Below, one piece after another: positions 37,910 through 47,807 of a DNA stretch of 64,000 nucleotides. The notes below the pieces were generated by a model. It had not been told where the DNA came from and ran no database searches. It saw only the letters and a program-made list of their open reading frames with translations. How positions within the stretch are numbered: position 1 is the first letter of the stretch; each line of letters opens with the position of its first letter. Made by a program: the position numbers and the translations under genes. The stretch is from Phaeodactylum tricornutum CCAP 1055/1. Lineage: Eukaryota > Bacillariophyta > Bacillariophyceae > Surirellales > Neidiaceae. The stretch covers positions 1,069,667 to 1,133,666 of the forward strand of contig NC_011669.1 of NCBI RefSeq assembly GCF_000150955.2. The letters are read 5' to 3'.

Positions 37910-38839
37910 CTAGAAAAAGAAGGAGCCAGTGGCAACAGCAGCACATAGGGTAGATCCTGCCATGCACAAAGTCCGCTGAACCATCATACCCTTTTGCAGA
38001 GGGGTCTTTGTCTCACGCTGTTTCATTCCGTTCGCACAAGCCGCTAACGCCCAGGCGATTGTCAAACCGTAGACAGGTGATCCTTGCGTCAATGTGACAC
38101 CCACACCCAACGCTGTTGCTGCCAGGGCTGACGCATGACCCGTCGCGATCACGAAAGTATCGGAAACGTCAGACATTGCTACGCAACCGTTCAGGTTAAC
38201 CAATGTTGCAGCGGTTGCCCAGCCGAAGTGCATTGTCAATGGAACAAAATAGCCAGCAAGTCCGGGAGGCACGGCAGCATGAACTTGGGAAAGAGCGACG
38301 GCTGTCCCTCCCAACATAGCCGCACTGACGTATTTGGCCCAGCCCTTGTTGTACGAAGGCCTGAAAGAAGCACACCACAGACTCTGACAGAGATTGGCAG
38401 CGATAAACGGAGCCGAAATTTGTGGTAGCACAGTCTGCAATGGCTGCACAGAAAACTGACCCAGACAGAACGCCGCTTCGCCTAGGTAGATTGGGCCCCA
38501 GATTGCGAACGCCCACCCAGCTGGGGAAACGAGAGTGCGACCCCGCGACGCCGAGTAAACATCTGAAAAGGTTGAACAACTCTCATTGTCTTTCGAAGAG
38601 GTATTTCCGGATCCAGGTTCAGCGGGATTCAATACTTCTTTACGCATTTCGGCATCTTGCTGACCATCGATCCTTCCTGGCACAGAAACAGCTGCGACGT
38701 TCGTAGCGAACGCGGCAGCGTTGAGCAGCTGCAAAGATCCAAGAGAAAAGCCAACCGCCTGAAGCGATGGAATTGCGGACAGCACCGCTGCTCCAGCCAC
38801 AGCGATAAGCGGTGGCGAATTTAAAGCCTGTAAGCTCAT
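37910..38839 (-). CDS. multi-pass membrane protein, TspO/MBR-like class
   Basis: Single exon, 309 residues, ATG at 38839. Many hydrophobic spans: an N-terminal pair (AVAGAAVLSAIPSLQAVGFSL), LVSPAGWAFAIWGPIYLGEAAFCL, and at least four more towards the C-terminus, which ends GSFFF. PAGWAFAIWGPIYLGE recalls the PAGxxFxIWGxIY signature of a broad family of plant, algal and cyanobacterial membrane proteins often annotated as TspO/MBR-related. The hydrophilic loop at about 65-95 is Ser-rich. Function in this class is poorly known, and the relation to true TspO porphyrin/sterol-binding proteins is uncertain. Confidence 0.55.
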   Translation of the reverse strand: MSLQALNSPPLIAVAGAAVLSAIPSLQAVGFSLGSLQLLNAAAFATNVAAVSVPGRIDGQQDAEMRKEVLNPAEPGSGNTSSKDNESCSTFSDVYSASRGRTLVSPAGWAFAIWGPIYLGEAAFCLGQFSVQPLQTVLPQISAPFIAANLCQSLWCASFRPSYNKGWAKYVSAAMLGGTAVALSQVHAAVPPGLAGYFVPLTMHFGWATAATLVNLNGCVAMSDVSDTFVIATGHASALAATALGVGVTLTQGSPVYGLTIAWALAACANGMKQRETKTPLQKGMMVQRTLCMAGSTLCAAVATGSFFF

Positions 38840-39200
38840 ACTCTAAATTTTTGAGCTGTGCAGACTCGCTTACAGTCAATGGAATCGTCTTTCTTCTGTT
38901 GAACAATGGGACGAAGCGGATCTTGGCAAATGCTATGTAACTGCAAGTTCGAAATATGACAATGGGGGACTACCGCCCCTCTAACCCTATCTTGAAGCCA
39001 TCGTGGGTTTCCAGTTGTTTTTGGTTTCACTTACAGTTACTGCTACGAATTGACTATGATACTTACAGTTAGTGAGAGTGCTCCACATCAATGAGCAGCA
39101 AATACAAGGTACACAATATGGGTAGACTTGATGTGCCTCCGTTTTTAGATGATTGTTGTATGAACCGCTTTCTTTCAAAGCCAAGCGCCCGCTGGCAACT
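38840..39200. promoter_or_regulatory. divergent promoter region with three ACAGT motifs
   Basis: Only 361 bases separate two divergent genes. CTTACAGTCAAT lies at 38869-38880, 30 bases before the minus-strand ATG. CTTACAGTTA occurs at 39030-39039 and again at about 39062-39071. Confidence 0.5.
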
Positions 39201-40451
39201 ATGAGGATTGCCGTCGGAGATTTCTTTCAACGATGCCGACGCATACCGAGTGGAATCTTCGACAATCTACACAAGGAAATTGAGTTCACGGGGCAGAGCC
39301 CCCTAGAATTGCTAGATCGACATTGGAACTGGGGAAATGTCATGAGCTTGATGGAAAACACTATTGTATGGATAGGAGCTGGGGCTTTTCTCGCCCGGAC
39401 GACCCCCGACTTCGCTCCCCAGAACGTGCCACCTAGAGGACAAAATTGGCATATGCTCGTGTCAACCTTTGCTGATGATACAGAAGACGTGTTTCGGGCA
39501 ACTGTGCTTATTTACGGAACCACGAGAGAGCAAGCGGTTGATGCCTTCCGGTTTGTGTTTGAGCTCTTGATCTTTGATAGTCAATTGACAAGAGTCCACT
39601 TTCAAACTAATGGTGCCGTCCCTTTCCGCTTTCCTGTCACACCATTTCAGATCCAGTCGCTTCTGATCAACCACCGCTCGTTTGAAAGAATTGCGCTCTG
39701 GAACGTCGATTTGGACGTTGAGCAGTGTCAGAAAATTGGCACTTTTGTCGATCAGAAAACTCTTATATACTTGAGCGGATGCAGCTATACCGAATCAGCT
39801 TTTGCGGCTTTATTTTCTTGTGATGGGACCTCTGGCCTTCGCAAGCTGAAGCTCATGGAAACTGTAAGCTCTTCCACCGTGGCAGCCATTTTTTGTAAAA
39901 AGTGCCGTCTGCGCGAATTAGCGTTGGTGAACAACCATCTCGACAAAAATTGCAAACAACAAATAACGGAGGGAATAAGAAACAACAAGACGCTGGTCCG
40001 ATTCGACTTGCAACAGAACGAAATGACCGACTTTGAATGGATCTCCCTATTCCAGGCAGTCCGAGACCATCCTACTCTGGAAAGCTTAGACGTGTCCAGG
40101 TCTGTACCTTTTCGTGTTCCATTGCTTGATAGTCAAAAGGAAACGCGTATGCGGGCTGTTGTTGACACGCTAAAGACCAACCGAAAGATTCTCGCTATCC
40201 GTTTTTCTATGCAAGAGTTACACATACCGACAATGCCGACAATCTACTCTCATCTCGCAATTAATAATTTGCGTCATTTTCAAGCGGAATTGGTGTCCAT
40301 GGAATCGTTGTCTCGGCGAGAAAACCTTTCGGCTGCATTAGTAGCCAGGTCGTTGAACCTTAGCGCCATTTTCTTTCTGGTCCGCTGTAATGCTGACATC
40401 CTAGCTCCCACCATTTTCTTGTTGAGGAAACGAAAAGAACCCGATCGGTAG
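39201..40451 (+). CDS. leucine-rich-repeat-like (RNI-type) protein
   Basis: ATG at 39201 gives 416 residues; upstream the frame opens only at TTG. Residues about 230-330 hold leucine-rich units of the ribonuclease-inhibitor type: LRKLKLMETVSSSTVAAIF, LRELALVNNHLDKNCKQQI, LVRFDLQQNEMTDFEWISLF and LESLDVSRS. The N-terminal half is not recognised; it has FQRCRRIPSGIFDNL and a conserved-looking WNWGNVMSLMENTIVW. No signal peptide or membrane span is clear. Diatom genomes carry many such LRR proteins of unknown role. Confidence 0.55.
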   Translation: MRIAVGDFFQRCRRIPSGIFDNLHKEIEFTGQSPLELLDRHWNWGNVMSLMENTIVWIGAGAFLARTTPDFAPQNVPPRGQNWHMLVSTFADDTEDVFRATVLIYGTTREQAVDAFRFVFELLIFDSQLTRVHFQTNGAVPFRFPVTPFQIQSLLINHRSFERIALWNVDLDVEQCQKIGTFVDQKTLIYLSGCSYTESAFAALFSCDGTSGLRKLKLMETVSSSTVAAIFCKKCRLRELALVNNHLDKNCKQQITEGIRNNKTLVRFDLQQNEMTDFEWISLFQAVRDHPTLESLDVSRSVPFRVPLLDSQKETRMRAVVDTLKTNRKILAIRFSMQELHIPTMPTIYSHLAINNLRHFQAELVSMESLSRRENLSAALVARSLNLSAIFFLVRCNADILAPTIFLLRKRKEPDR

Positions 40452-40545: not shown

Positions 40546-43500
40546 TTACGCTACGCTCCAAATGGGGCTCTTACCTGGCTCAAAATCCGTTTTGAAGTTG
40601 ACAACACGCCCAGTTCCTCTGGGTTGATCGTCCCGGAGAACTGTGTGTAGTTTAGGGTCTTCCGCCCCAAACTGCAACACGAATGTATCCGCAACTTCAA
40701 CGCTTTCAATGAATGTAAACAAGTTAAGATCGACGTGTTTTCTGCCATCCCAGAGGGCAACTATGTTTCCCTCTGCCCAGAGAGCAACAAATACACAACC
40801 GTCGCCCATTTCCGTGAACATTTCAATCTTCACCTCAGGAGTGTTTTCAGGCACGATAGACCGGATTGCCGAATTAAGAGACTCTTTAATCGTGGTCAAT
40901 GACATTGATGTTTCACTTCCTTCCGTTTCGAGCTGAAACACTGTTTGGTGACCCAGCGGTTTCTGTGAATTCCATTGCTCAAGCGATGACGATTGATCGT
41001 AAGCGTCGGGTTCAAACAGTTGAGAAGGTCGATAGTTATCAAAGAATTTGAACTCTAGTGCTCCACGGACGCTTCGTACTTCCGAAACAACCTCGGCCGA
41101 TTGCTCTGCCTTTGTCGCGAAGTCAACCAAGTGGCGCACGAAGTGCTCGTCGCCAGCGGAAGTGATCGATAGCTTTAAGCTGCTTGCTGTCGTGTTGAAA
41201 TAAACTTCCGCGGTGTAGACTGGTTCCTTTTTGAAAATTTCTCTACGGAACTCATCAACAAAAACACTACGCCAGGATTCCGAGTGATCGACCGTTGGCG
41301 CCTGAACTAAGATGTCTTCCGCTAGCCATCTTTTGGCGTTTCTTGAGCTTCTGAAGATTCGGAACAAAATTCGAGCCATCGTAGAAGATGCGCCTTCATC
41401 AATGACAATTGCACGCAGCTTCTTCCCGCGCGCTGACAAAGATCCACTCAGCAGCTTCCACACTTCTTTCTCACAAGTTTCCATTTGGGCAAGTCCGTCA
41501 GCTGCAAATTCAGCACCAGGTGCAAGATTGAGACAAGTCGCGAGAGTCACCACCTCCTCGATCTTGTCTTGTTTCTTGAGTATCTCGGCACTCTTGCATG
41601 CCTGACCGCTCTGGCCGCAAAGTACGCCAATAATGAAGCTTTCGTCTTGAACGAGGCTCATGCTTTCATTCAGGACAGTCTCCACGATTTTGTCATCAAT
41701 GGGTATATTCCGGATTTGTTCCACGGGGTCTAGGCATAAATTGTTCATATGAGGACCTATACTCTTTGCATCGCTTTTCCACTTTTCGGCGCCAAACATT
41801 CCTCCTGAGACAATTCTGTATGCGGACGACGACGCACCGACGCTGTCGCTTCCAACGGCTGCAATAACGGCCTTTCTGATGCTATCCTGTTTCTCAAAGC
41901 TACTCCAGAGTTGGATGTCAAACGCGCAATAAGCATCCTGGGACATGCTTCGAGCAACAACGTAGCCCTCGGCGAATATGAGCACAATAGAGTTACCGGC
42001 CTCTTCTGAAAGTACAGTAGAGAGAACTATCAGTCCTTCTTGTTTTAGAGCAGAGGTGAGACTTCTTTCAAGCGACTGTAGGTCGAGGGCGGCCGTTGCT
42101 TTCTCTACTTCAACAATCATAAGGATACCCGGACTGCGCTCTTGAACGCCTAGCTCCTCTTCATCATCCTTCTGGCAAGAGATCTGGCGGTGCACGCTAG
42201 TATAGTTGCGTTGATAGTCATGGGCATTGTCAAGCGAGTCATTGGAATCAAGTAAGTTGTACACGTAGTCGACTTTATGATCCGTTGTAGGCGTTCGAAG
42301 AAAATCAACTTTGTCGCTACCCAGCATCAAAGATTGAGAGCAAACGAACGGAACATCGTGATAGAAAACATGCACGGTATGCTCAAAGATTTCGGACATC
42401 TCTTTGAAATAATTGTACTCATTCTTCACAAAAATTCCGTCCGGCTTGACGAGAAGTGAAAGAGCTTCCATGACATCCAGATCCCGGGTAACTGGAAAGG
42501 ACATGACAGTCTCGGAAAGATCAACCAATACCATGTCAAAGGACCCGAAGTATTCCTTAGGTATCATCAGCAAGCTCTTGGTTGCGTCGCCGTACCACCA
42601 TTCAACTTTTTCATTGTCCCAATGAGGCTGGGCTCCGTAGTACTTGAAGGCCCCTCGCGTCACCTTCTGGTCTAGCTCCAGACCAACCACAAGTTCCAGA
42701 GAAGGATATTTGATGATATCATGAAGTAGCATGGAATCCCCTCCACCAACGAACAGCACTCGCTGGATTTTGTCCAAAAAGCGTGCCGTATAGTGAACCG
42801 CCATTTCATGATAGTGAGGACGATAACTTGTACAAATCTGAACAATCGCATCCAGTTCAAAACACGTGTCTTTCATGGTAGGGTCTGAAAAGAACGCAAT
42901 TTTCTGATAGGGAGACTTGATTTCTTCCGTAACAGACCATGTATCGAACTTGAAGAGATCCTTGAATTTGCATGTTTCGGGGCGGTAAGCCGCCCAAGCC
43001 TCCACCTCTTCTTGTTCCAACGAATCATAGATTGTGGAGGTAAGCGCGCAGGGCCCTTCACCGTCGCTACAAGTTGTTTTGACTCCAGTCTTAGACTGAG
43101 AGGCAAGATGGCGGGCTGCTTCCTTCATCGCTATCGAAAGTGCCTGGTGATATTGATTAATCGTATCCCATTCATAGTCCAGGACCTCAACATCACGCGA
43201 CCGGAGCTCCGTTTCGGCAAAAAAGTCTAGTCGACGAATCTGTTTCTCGAGAAAGTCCAGAGTAGTAGCAGTAAGCCCGTTCCAGTGTATAATCATTTCT
43301 CCCGTAGGCTTTCCTTCCTCGTTCAATTTCTCATCGATATCAAACGAGATTTTTTGGTCAGGAAAGAGCCATCTTTGAGGATACAATTCCACGAATCCGT
43401 AGTCCCGAAGAATCTCTCCGGTTCCGTACCAATGCGCTCGGGCATCGCAGTCGGTACAAAAATTATAGGTCGAGTAGAGTTCCTCTCCCGCTTGGATTTT

Positions 43501-44358
43501 TCGAGATGCCGTGACGCTCACCGGACCCCCATCTTGAACGGAGTTACTTTGCGTATTCAACCAACGGCCATTTCGGTGGCTCACCATGTCGTAAATAGGA
43601 ATAAGGAGTTCGTCCCAGCAACGTTGCACCACCATCATGGCCGCGTTTTCTGCGAACGGGTCCGTACTGCCGCGACATAGATTGTGCCATCCCGATGTAA
43701 GCCAATCCAAGGCCTCAAAGGGCGGCAGAGTCTGCTTGCCGCTCAAGTCTTGACCGAGCATTTCCAAAAGGAGAGATTTGCCCGCCACGGACCAGGCACT
43801 GGGAAGCTGTCCGTAAGGTTGTTCGCGTAGGTAATTGGTAAAGGGAGCGTAATCGGACTCCTCGCCCAAATCAAACTCTCGAAGAAGACTGCGGACCGTT
43901 CCGCAATTCATGGCACTTGATGGCCATTGGATGGATGAGCGCGGCACGCGGCTCTCAAAGTCGCCGTCGTCGTAGGCAACATCGAACGTGTCGTCTTCGG
44001 GGTAAAAGGCCGCGACTGTCGCCGGATGCCATTCCTTATTAACAAAGAAGCCCTCAATCTTGTCTCCTACTTTGTAGTCGTTGATTGCGTCGAGTAAGCA
44101 AGATCGGGGGACTTCGAACAGGAGTTCCTTATCCGAAATATCCTCGTTGGCAAAGACCCCGTACGGGGACGTAGGATCATTGGCGTCGAATCTTCGTAAC
44201 TCGATTTTGGAATGGAAAAATCCTCCCTTGGAGCGGATCCAATCAACGAGTGCCTTTCCATGGTCGATAGTCACCGAACTCGCACCGTTTTCCGAAGCGC
44301 AGACGATCGGAAGATGGAGGAGTAACAGCCACGAAATAGGCTTGAAAAGAGGCTTCAT
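40546..44358 (-). CDS. mosaic protein: Tudor-like, SET, spermidine-synthase-like and two AdoMetDC-like regions
   Basis: Single exon, 1270 residues, ATG at 44358. Order: a signal peptide (WLLLLHLPIVCAS); a SET domain split by an insert (about 30-330); inside it a Tudor-like barrel (about 93-150, VGDKIEGFFVNKEWHPATV and VAYDDGDFE); SET end at AGEELYSTYNFCTDCDARA; then a Rossmann region (about 530-680) like spermidine synthase with VLFVGGGDSMLLHDI, GLELDQ, WYGDA and MVLVDLSE. GGGDS and the acidic pair keep the AdoMet/dcAdoMet-binding pattern, but the DSSDP polyamine loop is changed to DLSET. The last ~520 residues contain two stretches (about 750-850 and 1150-1265) resembling the fold of prokaryotic-type AdoMet decarboxylase (for example FVALWAEGNIVALWDGRKHVDLNLFTF), without the Ser-His cleavage site. 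The signal peptide suggests secretory-pathway entry. Confidence 0.7.
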   Translation of the reverse strand: MKPLFKPISWLLLLHLPIVCASENGASSVTIDHGKALVDWIRSKGGFFHSKIELRRFDANDPTSPYGVFANEDISDKELLFEVPRSCLLDAINDYKVGDKIEGFFVNKEWHPATVAAFYPEDDTFDVAYDDGDFESRVPRSSIQWPSSAMNCGTVRSLLREFDLGEESDYAPFTNYLREQPYGQLPSAWSVAGKSLLLEMLGQDLSGKQTLPPFEALDWLTSGWHNLCRGSTDPFAENAAMMVVQRCWDELLIPIYDMVSHRNGRWLNTQSNSVQDGGPVSVTASRKIQAGEELYSTYNFCTDCDARAHWYGTGEILRDYGFVELYPQRWLFPDQKISFDIDEKLNEEGKPTGEMIIHWNGLTATTLDFLEKQIRRLDFFAETELRSRDVEVLDYEWDTINQYHQALSIAMKEAARHLASQSKTGVKTTCSDGEGPCALTSTIYDSLEQEEVEAWAAYRPETCKFKDLFKFDTWSVTEEIKSPYQKIAFFSDPTMKDTCFELDAIVQICTSYRPHYHEMAVHYTARFLDKIQRVLFVGGGDSMLLHDIIKYPSLELVVGLELDQKVTRGAFKYYGAQPHWDNEKVEWWYGDATKSLLMIPKEYFGSFDMVLVDLSETVMSFPVTRDLDVMEALSLLVKPDGIFVKNEYNYFKEMSEIFEHTVHVFYHDVPFVCSQSLMLGSDKVDFLRTPTTDHKVDYVYNLLDSNDSLDNAHDYQRNYTSVHRQISCQKDDEEELGVQERSPGILMIVEVEKATAALDLQSLERSLTSALKQEGLIVLSTVLSEEAGNSIVLIFAEGYVVARSMSQDAYCAFDIQLWSSFEKQDSIRKAVIAAVGSDSVGASSSAYRIVSGGMFGAEKWKSDAKSIGPHMNNLCLDPVEQIRNIPIDDKIVETVLNESMSLVQDESFIIGVLCGQSGQACKSAEILKKQDKIEEVVTLATCLNLAPGAEFAADGLAQMETCEKEVWKLLSGSLSARGKKLRAIVIDEGASSTMARILFRIFRSSRNAKRWLAEDILVQAPTVDHSESWRSVFVDEFRREIFKKEPVYTAEVYFNTTASSLKLSITSAGDEHFVRHLVDFATKAEQSAEVVSEVRSVRGALEFKFFDNYRPSQLFEPDAYDQSSSLEQWNSQKPLGHQTVFQLETEGSETSMSLTTIKESLNSAIRSIVPENTPEVKIEMFTEMGDGCVFVALWAEGNIVALWDGRKHVDLNLFTFIESVEVADTFVLQFGAEDPKLHTVLRDDQPRGTGRVVNFKTDFEPGKSPIWSVA

Positions 44359-45610: not shown

Positions 45611-47807
45611 ATGGGCGTGCCACCGTCTCACAAAATGCCGCCAGTACACAATGACGCGACAACTCTTTCGACGTATCTGTCCCTCATTCAACAGTACCTT
45701 TCCGTCTTCATGTTCGACAACGCTATTTGGTTAGCGGAGCGTTGCGTTGCGGAGCATCCGACCGACTCTGAGGCGGTCTATTTGCTAGCGCTTTCCCACT
45801 ACCGCTCCGGTGCAGCGAAAGCGGCTCGTGTGGTTCTGGAACGTACCAACAGTATTACCACTCCAACTATGCAGTTCCTTGCTGCACAGTGTGCCTTTGA
45901 AATCAAAGATTACATACGCGCTGAAACGTTGCTTCTGAAGAGCTGCAGAGCTACATACGAGCAAATTAAACTAAGCTTGGACCGTAACGGAAACATGGAC
46001 GATTGGATTGTGGAGACCTCGGTAAGACAATTTGTAGAACCTATGGGTTCCTGTCTCTCCATTGACTAACAGCGGTGCTTATTCTTAGCCTTGTCCTGTT
46101 CCCAACGGGGCAGCTGGAATCGCCTTGCTCGGAAAAATTTGTCGTCACACAAACCGTAAAGAACGTGCTACAAAGTACTTTGAAATGTCGTTGAGGCTCG
46201 ATCCTTTTTTGTGGACCAGCTTCGAGGCAATTGCTGAATTAGGGGTGAGTGATGTGGAGACCTCGGAGCTTTTTGGTATCACAATACCGTACACCACAAA
46301 ATCCAGTATATGTGACGTCAAAACGCCACTCCAACCCATCGAAACACCAGCATCGGCGACACACCCGAAAACACATCTGTTCCCACCTTCCACAGCATTC
46401 CGCAATCGCACTGTTCACTTTGAAACTCCAGGACTCACACCCATTGCGGTAAATGCTAGTCTGATGCCGGCGGAAACCCCAAAATCGGCATCAAACGCTC
46501 AACGCCAGGATGTTCCGAACGTTCTGAAACGGGCCCGGGAAGTTGCTTCAAGACAATACTACCCACCCTCCCCCGAGACGCCAATTACGACAGTAGCACG
46601 GTCGATGCGATATCTCAGAGGGCTAGGGAAAGACGATGGCTCGACTCCGTCCAGAAGCAAGAATCTAAATGATACATTTGGGCGTTCTCTGTTTTCTTTA
46701 GAAAACCAAGCATCCAATGCAACAACTGTCAAACAACGAGTGTTGAATGGTGAACAACTTGAAAAACCTGCTGCGACAGAGACCGTAGACGGCAATGTCA
46801 GGCACATCCTCGAACTACTCTGTAGCATGGGCAAAGCTTACCAGTGCCTTCGTAGCTATAACTGCAAGGAAGCGCTGCAAATTCTTCAAACGCTACCCTT
46901 GCGACAGCAGGCAACGGCATGGGTGCTGCATCAGGAAGGACGTGCTTATTTGGAGCTCAATGAGTTTGCATCAGCCGAACGGTGCTTGGAGCAAATGCAA
47001 ATCGTAGACCCGGGCCGAATGAAAGGATTGGAACTTCTGAGTACTGTGTATTGGCAAGTAAAGAAGGAGGTTGAACTAGCCCACTTGGCGCAGCGTGTTA
47101 CAGATTGGGATCGTGAATCGCCCGAGGCCTGGTGTGTTGTTGGTAACTGTTTTTCATTGCAGAAAGATCACGAAACCGCATTGACGTTCTTCTCTCGTTC
47201 CTTGCAACTTAACCCTAACTTCACCTACACCCATACTCTTTCTGGCTACGAATACATGGCGAACGAAGATTTCGTGAAGGCAATAGCTTGCTTCCGTCAG
47301 GCTTTGCGGACCGACGACAAACACTACAATGCCTGGTATGGTCTAGGAGCCATTTACCAACGCCAAGAAAAGTTTGATCTGGCTGAGTATCATTTTGGAA
47401 AGGCTGTCGCGCTTCATCCAACTAGCAGCGCTCTTCGATGCAACCTTGGCATTGCTCAATTTTCCAATGGAAAAGCGTATCAAGCTCTCGATACCTTGTC
47501 AGAAGCCTTTCACCTGGACCCACGAAATCCCCAGGCCCGCTTTCAAAGAGCTTCCATCTATATGGCGCTGCATCGCCCGGAAGAAGCGCTTTCAGAATTA
47601 TGCAAGGTACGAGATGTTGCACCTCGCGAAGCAACTGTACATTTCTCGCTGGGGAAAGTATATAAGAAGTTGGGGCGGACGAAAGAGGCTATGAAATGCT
47701 TTTTAACAGCTATGGATCTTGATCCTAAAGGGAGCCAAACCATCAAGTCTGCTTTGGAAAAGTTGGAGGAGCCTGACATCGACGAGGGCACAGGCGTTGG
47801 GTTCTGA
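45611..47807 (+). CDS. CDC27: anaphase-promoting complex subunit Cdc27/APC3
   Basis: Exons 45611-46021 and 46089-47807 give about 709 residues. The ATG at 45611 is the first in frame; a second at 45638 is possible. The N-terminus (ATTLSTYLSLIQQYLSVFMFDNAIWLAERC, then YLLALSHYRSGAAKAA) is the TPR-like dimerisation region of APC3. A variable linker rich in TP sites (ETPGLTP, PETPITT) lies at about 190-330 and fits the CDK-phosphorylated loop of Cdc27. The C-terminal ~360 residues are a run of TPRs (NAWYGLGAIYQRQEKFDLAE, ALRCNLGIAQFSNGKAYQAL, TVHFSLGKVYKKLGRTKEA), which bind the IR tails of Cdc20/Cdh1. The APC/C ubiquitinates cyclins and securin at mitosis. Confidence 0.93.

Follow-up and report, generated by a model that had tools for sequence, protein, structure and literature searches.

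A predicted Phaeodactylum tricornutum protein that joins SET, aminopropyltransferase and dead AdoMet decarboxylase-like domains

Results

A single long frame combines three enzyme-related domain types

A gene of the diatom Phaeodactylum tricornutum CCAP 1055/1 is predicted to encode, in one frame, a SET lysine-methyltransferase region, a spermidine-synthase-like aminopropyltransferase (APT) domain and at least one dead domain resembling S-adenosylmethionine (AdoMet) decarboxylase (AdoMetDC), with a probable second copy of the last. It lies in a stretch of 64,000 nucleotides of contig NC_011669.1 (positions 1,069,667 to 1,133,666), called the window here, and nucleotide positions below are those of the window. 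We tentatively read its product as an amine-modifying enzyme of the diatom secretory pathway, a reading that we hold possible without counting it probable. In the open passages of PMC12803844 and PMC6356823, the enzymes that make and attach diatom silica polyamines are still proposals; a protein that has both a SET region and an APT domain, together with what looks like a signal peptide, offers a concrete candidate that can be tested.

The gene is an open reading frame (ORF) of 1270 codons at 40546–44358 on the minus strand, the strand of all features described below unless stated otherwise, and it runs uninterrupted from an ATG start to a terminal stop, with the coordinates, strand and length that an earlier examination of the letters alone (the sequence-only reading) had given it. 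As the open frame around it comprises 1273 codons, the ATG sits close to the top of the frame. Across this interval, stops number 1 in the ORF's own frame (the terminal one) and 32, 42, 57, 64 and 78 in the other five, no N is present, and the GC content of the parts of the ORF ranges from 0.45 to 0.54. We judge this to be a real and unusual gene. The uninterrupted frame, the absence of N and the GC content across the parts speak against two adjoining genes having been read as one, which we consider very improbable.

A SET region follows a putative signal peptide

The protein begins with a putative signal peptide, MKPLFKPISWLLLLHLPIVCAS (residues 1–22; 44293–44358). The highest 19-residue hydropathy of the whole protein, 1.59, starts at residue 4 and falls inside this signal peptide, which the sequence-only reading had also named; the assignment itself was made by eye.

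The whole protein was scanned against Pfam with curated cut-offs, and its regions were also scanned alone. The SET region (residues 34–466; 42961–44259) was identified by Pfam and by its resemblance to SETD6. Pfam SET (PF00856) matches residues 66–299 with 28.8 bits against a cut-off of 22.4 (E 1.8e-6) in the whole protein and with 31.3 bits (E 2.9e-7) in the region alone, in agreement with the lysine methyltransferase fold suggested earlier; the matched span exceeds the 105-position profile because of inserts. SETD6 is the sole PDB sequence listed for this region, a weak match (E 0.061, no single stretch passing), and the two have in common YG..A near the start, D..(N/S)H, TY(G/N) and YGFVE.YP. 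This pattern suggests a methyltransferase of what we take to be the SETD6/Rubisco-LSMT class.

In SET domains, the NH motif binds AdoMet and a tyrosine is catalytic. At the place of the NH motif, the alignment puts YDMVSH (43576–43593), in which serine replaces asparagine, and the tyrosine is kept in STYNF (Tyr298). The genome holds 51 SET matches, and we compared 14 stretches, mostly picked for long match spans; the closest to the window SET is L031, with a Smith-Waterman score of 151 that none of 300 shuffles reaches (maximum 81). Since the corresponding residues of L031 are QH, the asparagine does not appear to be fixed in this SET group. L031 (G000:C6:784600-786500) is a SET frame of 367 codons, hydrophobic at its N-terminus.

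The Tudor-like barrel said to be inserted in the SET region corresponds to a match to PTM_DIR17_Tudor (PF21743) at residues 107–135 (43954–44040). This match stays below the cut-off of 27.2 bits both in the whole protein (16.9 bits, E 0.0054) and when scanned alone (18.5 bits, E 0.0018), and the Tudor assignment depends on these 29 sub-threshold residues. The window SET shares with SETD6-type methyltransferases, which are protein lysine methyltransferases, a motif pattern including the tyrosine and the YGFVE-YP end (in a weak match), but it differs from them in the sub-threshold insert, SH for NH, the apparent signal peptide and the fusion to an APT.

The aminopropyltransferase domain keeps its cofactor residues

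The APT domain (residues 474–713; 42220–42939) was located with Pfam, NCBIfam and PDB sequences. Pfam Spermine_synth (PF01564) matches residues 515–657 with 56.2 bits against a cut-off of 22.9 (E 4.3e-15), and the best solved sequence relatives are spermidine synthases (best E 1.2e-11), as expected of the spermidine-synthase-like AdoMet-binding domain of the sequence-only reading. The roles of the GGGD loop, the ribose-binding glutamate and the loop aspartate are those known from spermidine synthases. When aligned with human, plant, worm, own-genome and bacterial enzymes, the domain retains YQ, LD..(I/V)Q, YHEM, GGGD, E(I/L)D, the aspartate of GDA and the first aspartate of the polyamine loop. 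It thus has GGGDS (residues 538–542; 42733–42747), the glycine loop with the spermidine-synthase aspartate, LELD (residues 560–563) with the ribose-binding glutamate, and Asp613.

At the place of the DSSDP loop stands VDLSET (residues 612–617; 42508–42525), in which the first aspartate is kept, the second is replaced by Glu616 and the proline is lost, so that the change from DSSDP to DLSET noted earlier is indeed seen at residues 613–617. Priestia SpeE also has a glutamate at the second loop aspartate (DSTEP), which makes the altered loop weak evidence for lost activity. Beyond the loop, GP is lacking, the glutamine of the next strand is an asparagine and the PTYPSG segment is absent; the strict spermidine-synthase loop (D-x-x-(D/E)-P), the glutamine that follows it and PTYPSG are thus all missing from a domain that shares the cofactor residues and the first loop aspartate with spermidine synthases (SpeE/SpdSyn). 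With the cofactor residues kept and the acceptor segment changed, cofactor binding looks retained and acceptor binding altered. The scores also fall far short of the NCBIfam equivalog cut-offs for spermidine synthase (81.5 against 260 for PRK00811 and 56.6 against 249.55 for TIGR00417). A 13-sequence tree tentatively places the window APT next to the eukaryotic spermidine synthases (support 0.658; branch length 2.37 substitutions per site). A search of plasmids with the APT matched six records; in four of them the match falls on a gene named speE, and the other two lack annotation there.

One well-supported and one less certain AdoMetDC-like region

The APT is followed by a first AdoMetDC-like domain (residues 744–833; 41860–42129). 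Pfam AdoMet_dc (PF02675) aligns with residues 758–840 below its cut-off of 25 bits (16.1 bits, E 0.014; E 0.016 when scanned alone). We also used a profile built from seven AdoMetDC sequences and 5000 shuffles per region. Region 736–870 alone scores 9.6 bits, which none of the 4126 scored shuffles reaches (maximum 6.6), and the profile finds in the whole protein the sole stretch 744–815 (3.6 bits). The second region (residues 1131–1270; 40549–40968) is weak alone, with no Pfam match and a profile score of 1.5 bits that 133 of 3902 scored shuffles reach (maximum 14.2). The two regions resemble each other, with a Smith-Waterman score of 52 reached by none of 1000 shuffles (56 and none of 400 with other gap costs), and among ten pairs of regions only this pair beats all shuffles. 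We therefore regard a first dead AdoMetDC-like domain as well supported at the level of the amino acid sequence, and the second, as a repeat of the first, as less so.

Class 1b AdoMet decarboxylases have a processing serine and an active-site histidine and cysteine. Where ESHxxxHTWPE is expected, the first copy reads AEGYVVARSMS, with glycine aligned to the serine and arginine to the histidine, and DIQLWSS stands at the expected place of DLFTC (by eye, just past the end of the alignment). The second copy reads, by eye, AEGNIVALWDG and LNLFTF. Neither copy has the class 1b set of serine, histidine and cysteine, and AEG at both serine places bears out the absence of a processing site asserted for both decarboxylase-like regions. 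Overall, the sequence-only reading holds up in part, the weak points of what it observed being the Tudor insert and the second AdoMetDC-like region, and its interpretation is likewise partly supported.

Between the two copies lies region 871–1130 (40969–41748), which has no family match and an alpha/beta layout in a low-confidence model. A duplicated APT–AdoMetDC unit was considered; the APT scores 31 against 871–1130, below the shuffle mean of 35.8 and reached by 322 of 400 shuffles, and the APT half of this candidate was rejected at the sequence level. The score of the first AdoMetDC-like region against 871–1130 is reached by 13 of 400 shuffles.

Several of these results count against an active enzyme carrying AdoMetDC-like domains. 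The window SET lacks the asparagine of the AdoMet motif; the APT lacks the glutamine and PTYPSG and misses the equivalog cut-offs; and 133 of 3902 scored shuffles score as high as the second AdoMetDC-like region. Moreover, a PDB sequence search with residues 735–870 gave a single row, a ribosomal protein (E 0.97) and no AdoMetDC, the 16 rows for residues 1131–1270 include no AdoMetDC, the NCBIfam scan gave no AdoMetDC family for the window protein, and the window locus is not among the PF02675 matches in its own genome. Single-sequence AlphaFold models of residues 718–1270 and 875–1110 are unreliable, with a predicted local distance difference test (pLDDT) of 39.1 and 59.0, respectively. A strand, a helix and three strands appear in both AdoMetDC-like regions in the low-confidence model. 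Neither of these low-pLDDT models drew a Foldseek match with an E of at most 0.001. AdoMetDC is absent among the 50 matches listed for 718–1270; as the AdoMetDC-like parts were modeled at a pLDDT below 50, this absence says nothing. Structure prediction with fold search, the check put forward for the decarboxylase fold, was hence too poor to confirm or refute it.

Two other explanations draw on the same changes. The SET, APT and AdoMetDC-like motifs are all imperfect, as they might be in a decayed fusion without enzyme activity that is retained as a structural or matrix protein; however, 1270 codons have stayed open and the APT cofactor residues are kept, which points to selection at least on binding, and we find decay improbable. 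The lost processing serine and the changed acceptor residues would also suit a sensor of polyamine or decarboxylated AdoMet, in which the APT and AdoMetDC-like domains bind without catalysis and regulate an ordinary SETD6-type SET of the secretory pathway. PMC11151724 and PMC11554505 credit Nemoto 2020 with SET methyltransferases that are specific to diatoms and presumed to have wall proteins and polyamines as targets, which would be in keeping with such a protein. However, the APT retains cofactor and catalytic aspartates that a pure sensor would not need, and the SET motif is itself imperfect, leaving the sensor rather unlikely.

Three AdoMetDC–APT fusions elsewhere in the genome

The genome (27,450,724 bases in 88 contigs) contains eight PF01564 matches, which make seven loci should the two on C28 belong to a single gene; one of these is the window locus. 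Three of its four PF02675 matches adjoin an APT, namely L012 (on C19), L013 (on C1 at 1.598 Mb) and L014 (on C6). The AdoMetDC parts of these three read ESH(I/V)SFHTWP and have an intact site, and their APTs carry GGGEG instead of the GGGDG of spermidine synthases. A solved thermospermine synthase (6bq2) likewise has GGGEG, perhaps a clue to their acceptor or product. Each of the three proteins has a hydrophobic N-terminal stretch, with 19-residue maxima of 1.93, 2.11 and 1.55. L013 and L014 are each spread over two frames, which were not joined and are perhaps due to introns. The fourth PF02675 match, L020 (E 0.0648), is a 500-codon frame that by eye looks like an ordinary eukaryotic AdoMetDC.

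The C-terminal part of L012 passes as SET when scanned alone (23.1 against 22.4), but scores 18.4, below the cut-off, in the whole protein; that of L013 scores 19, also below, and that of L014 has no Pfam SET match. The C-terminal part of L014 is 29% identical to that of L012 (E 3.0e-16), and the same search did not list that of L013. A common origin of the window SET with these three C-terminal parts was considered and set aside, as 134, 32 and 211 of 300 shuffles reach the respective scores. The PTYPSG segment is absent from the APTs of L012 and L013 as well as from that of the window, a shared loss by which the window APT may have a common origin with theirs.

With GGGD retained in the window APT and the loss of PTYPSG common to two of the fusions, the protein could instead be a long-chain polyamine synthase acting on free polyamines beside the three AdoMetDC–APT fusions, with the SET region N-methylating the polyamine and no protein as a target. 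This function has been proposed in print for the fusions. However, SETs of the SETD6 type are known for methylating lysines of proteins, and we judge a synthase confined to free polyamines unlikely.

Discussion

Michael 2011 (FEBS Lett 585:2627) is reportedly the source for diatom AdoMetDC–APT fusions, sometimes with a histone-methyltransferase domain, for silica polyamines, and Nemoto 2020 is said to describe targeting of diatom-specific SET methyltransferases to the endoplasmic reticulum (ER). Human spermine synthase has a single dead domain and is not known to carry a SET region or to be secreted. The joining of a dead AdoMetDC-like domain to SET behind a signal peptide had been called unfamiliar in the sequence-only reading. 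However, PMC10968388 reports three AdoMetDC–APT fusions in P. tricornutum, the same number as the loci found here. According to PMC4483651, which credits Michael 2011, the T. pseudonana and P. tricornutum genomes revealed machines dimethylating silaffins and transferring polyamines onto them. The same work is cited in PMC12029483, which names a methyltransferase domain for the diatom fusions, in PMC6356823, which describes AdoMetDC–APT fusions with functions awaiting characterization, and in PMC12803844, which puts the number of fusion proteins containing an APT in Nitzschia inconspicua at 32 and asks that they be studied. None of the open passages on diatom polyamine fusions names the window gene. 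As the sequence-only reading had also stated, human spermine synthase joins an APT to a dead AdoMetDC-like domain that serves dimer formation, but there the dead domain is N-terminal (PMC12803844).

The window protein resembles the known diatom fusions in uniting domains of the AdoMetDC, APT and SET types in a single chain. However, the order in the window is SET, APT, AdoMetDC-like, whereas the known order is AdoMetDC, APT, SET. In addition, the window AdoMetDC is dead and apparently doubled while the three own-genome fusions have an intact site, GGGD stands against GGGEG, an apparent signal peptide contrasts with what would be an anchor in the fusions, and the window SET has no similarity beyond shuffles to the C-terminal parts of L012, L013 and L014. 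With a different order and SET, a dead AdoMetDC and apparently another targeting, the window gene is probably a variant, with its parts reordered, of the fusions already proposed for silica-shell polyamines, and perhaps one assembled separately. Should the APT not be shared by descent with the other fusions, the order and the SET sequence would point to such domains having been joined on more than one occasion. The idea attached to the window gene is thus largely in print already for its cousins; relative to the open passages, what seems new is the order of the parts, the different SET, an AdoMetDC that is dead and apparently present twice, and the apparent signal peptide.

For an amine-modifying enzyme of the secretory pathway, the tentative reading given at the outset, the signal peptide would take the protein into the ER, where the APT would move an aminopropyl group from decarboxylated AdoMet to an amine acceptor. 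As acceptor, either a long-chain polyamine or the side chain of a lysine in a silaffin-like protein is conceivable, and the SET region would N-methylate the same amine or lysine. By analogy with human spermine synthase, the two pseudo-AdoMetDC domains might form an internal dimer-like scaffold. Decarboxylated AdoMet would be supplied from elsewhere, for example by the three own-genome AdoMetDC–APT fusions with an intact site. The protein is acidic (isoelectric point 4.77 for residues 24–1270), which fits a basic partner, though weakly.

A bolder version, which we consider doubtful, is a second, separately assembled silica-polyamine machine, in which a soluble lumenal enzyme would build polyamine chains on silaffin-like lysines and methylate them in the same chain, with decarboxylated AdoMet coming from membrane-anchored AdoMetDC–APT fusions. 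If true, domains of the same three types would have come together twice within a single lineage, in opposite orders, and this would answer how silaffin lysines gain both polyamine and methyl groups.

Searches of other collections and genomic surroundings

A viral and a prokaryote collection were scanned once each, and no relative of the fusion outside its own genome was confirmed. In IMG/VR, the whole window protein gave 11 pattern matches, none of them confirmed. The AdoMetDC and APT of L012, the first frame of L014 and the AdoMetDC part of L013 were aligned for a search of prokaryote genomes, which gave 93 pattern matches and none confirmed, both patterns being derived from the AdoMetDC part.

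Three neighboring frames were examined, and none was seen to have polyamine-related content: a 309-codon frame at 37910–38839 (minus strand) and a 432-codon frame at 39153–40451 (plus strand), both without a Pfam match, and, at 46125–47807 (plus strand), a TPR protein that matches ANAPC3. The window has another SET match at 1975–2211 (G000:C1:1071641-1071877; E 4.4e-6), which contains one internal TGA and may reflect an intron or a decayed gene. Elsewhere in the genome, G000:C4:499842-501923 has three SET matches, each reported within a 1230-codon open frame.

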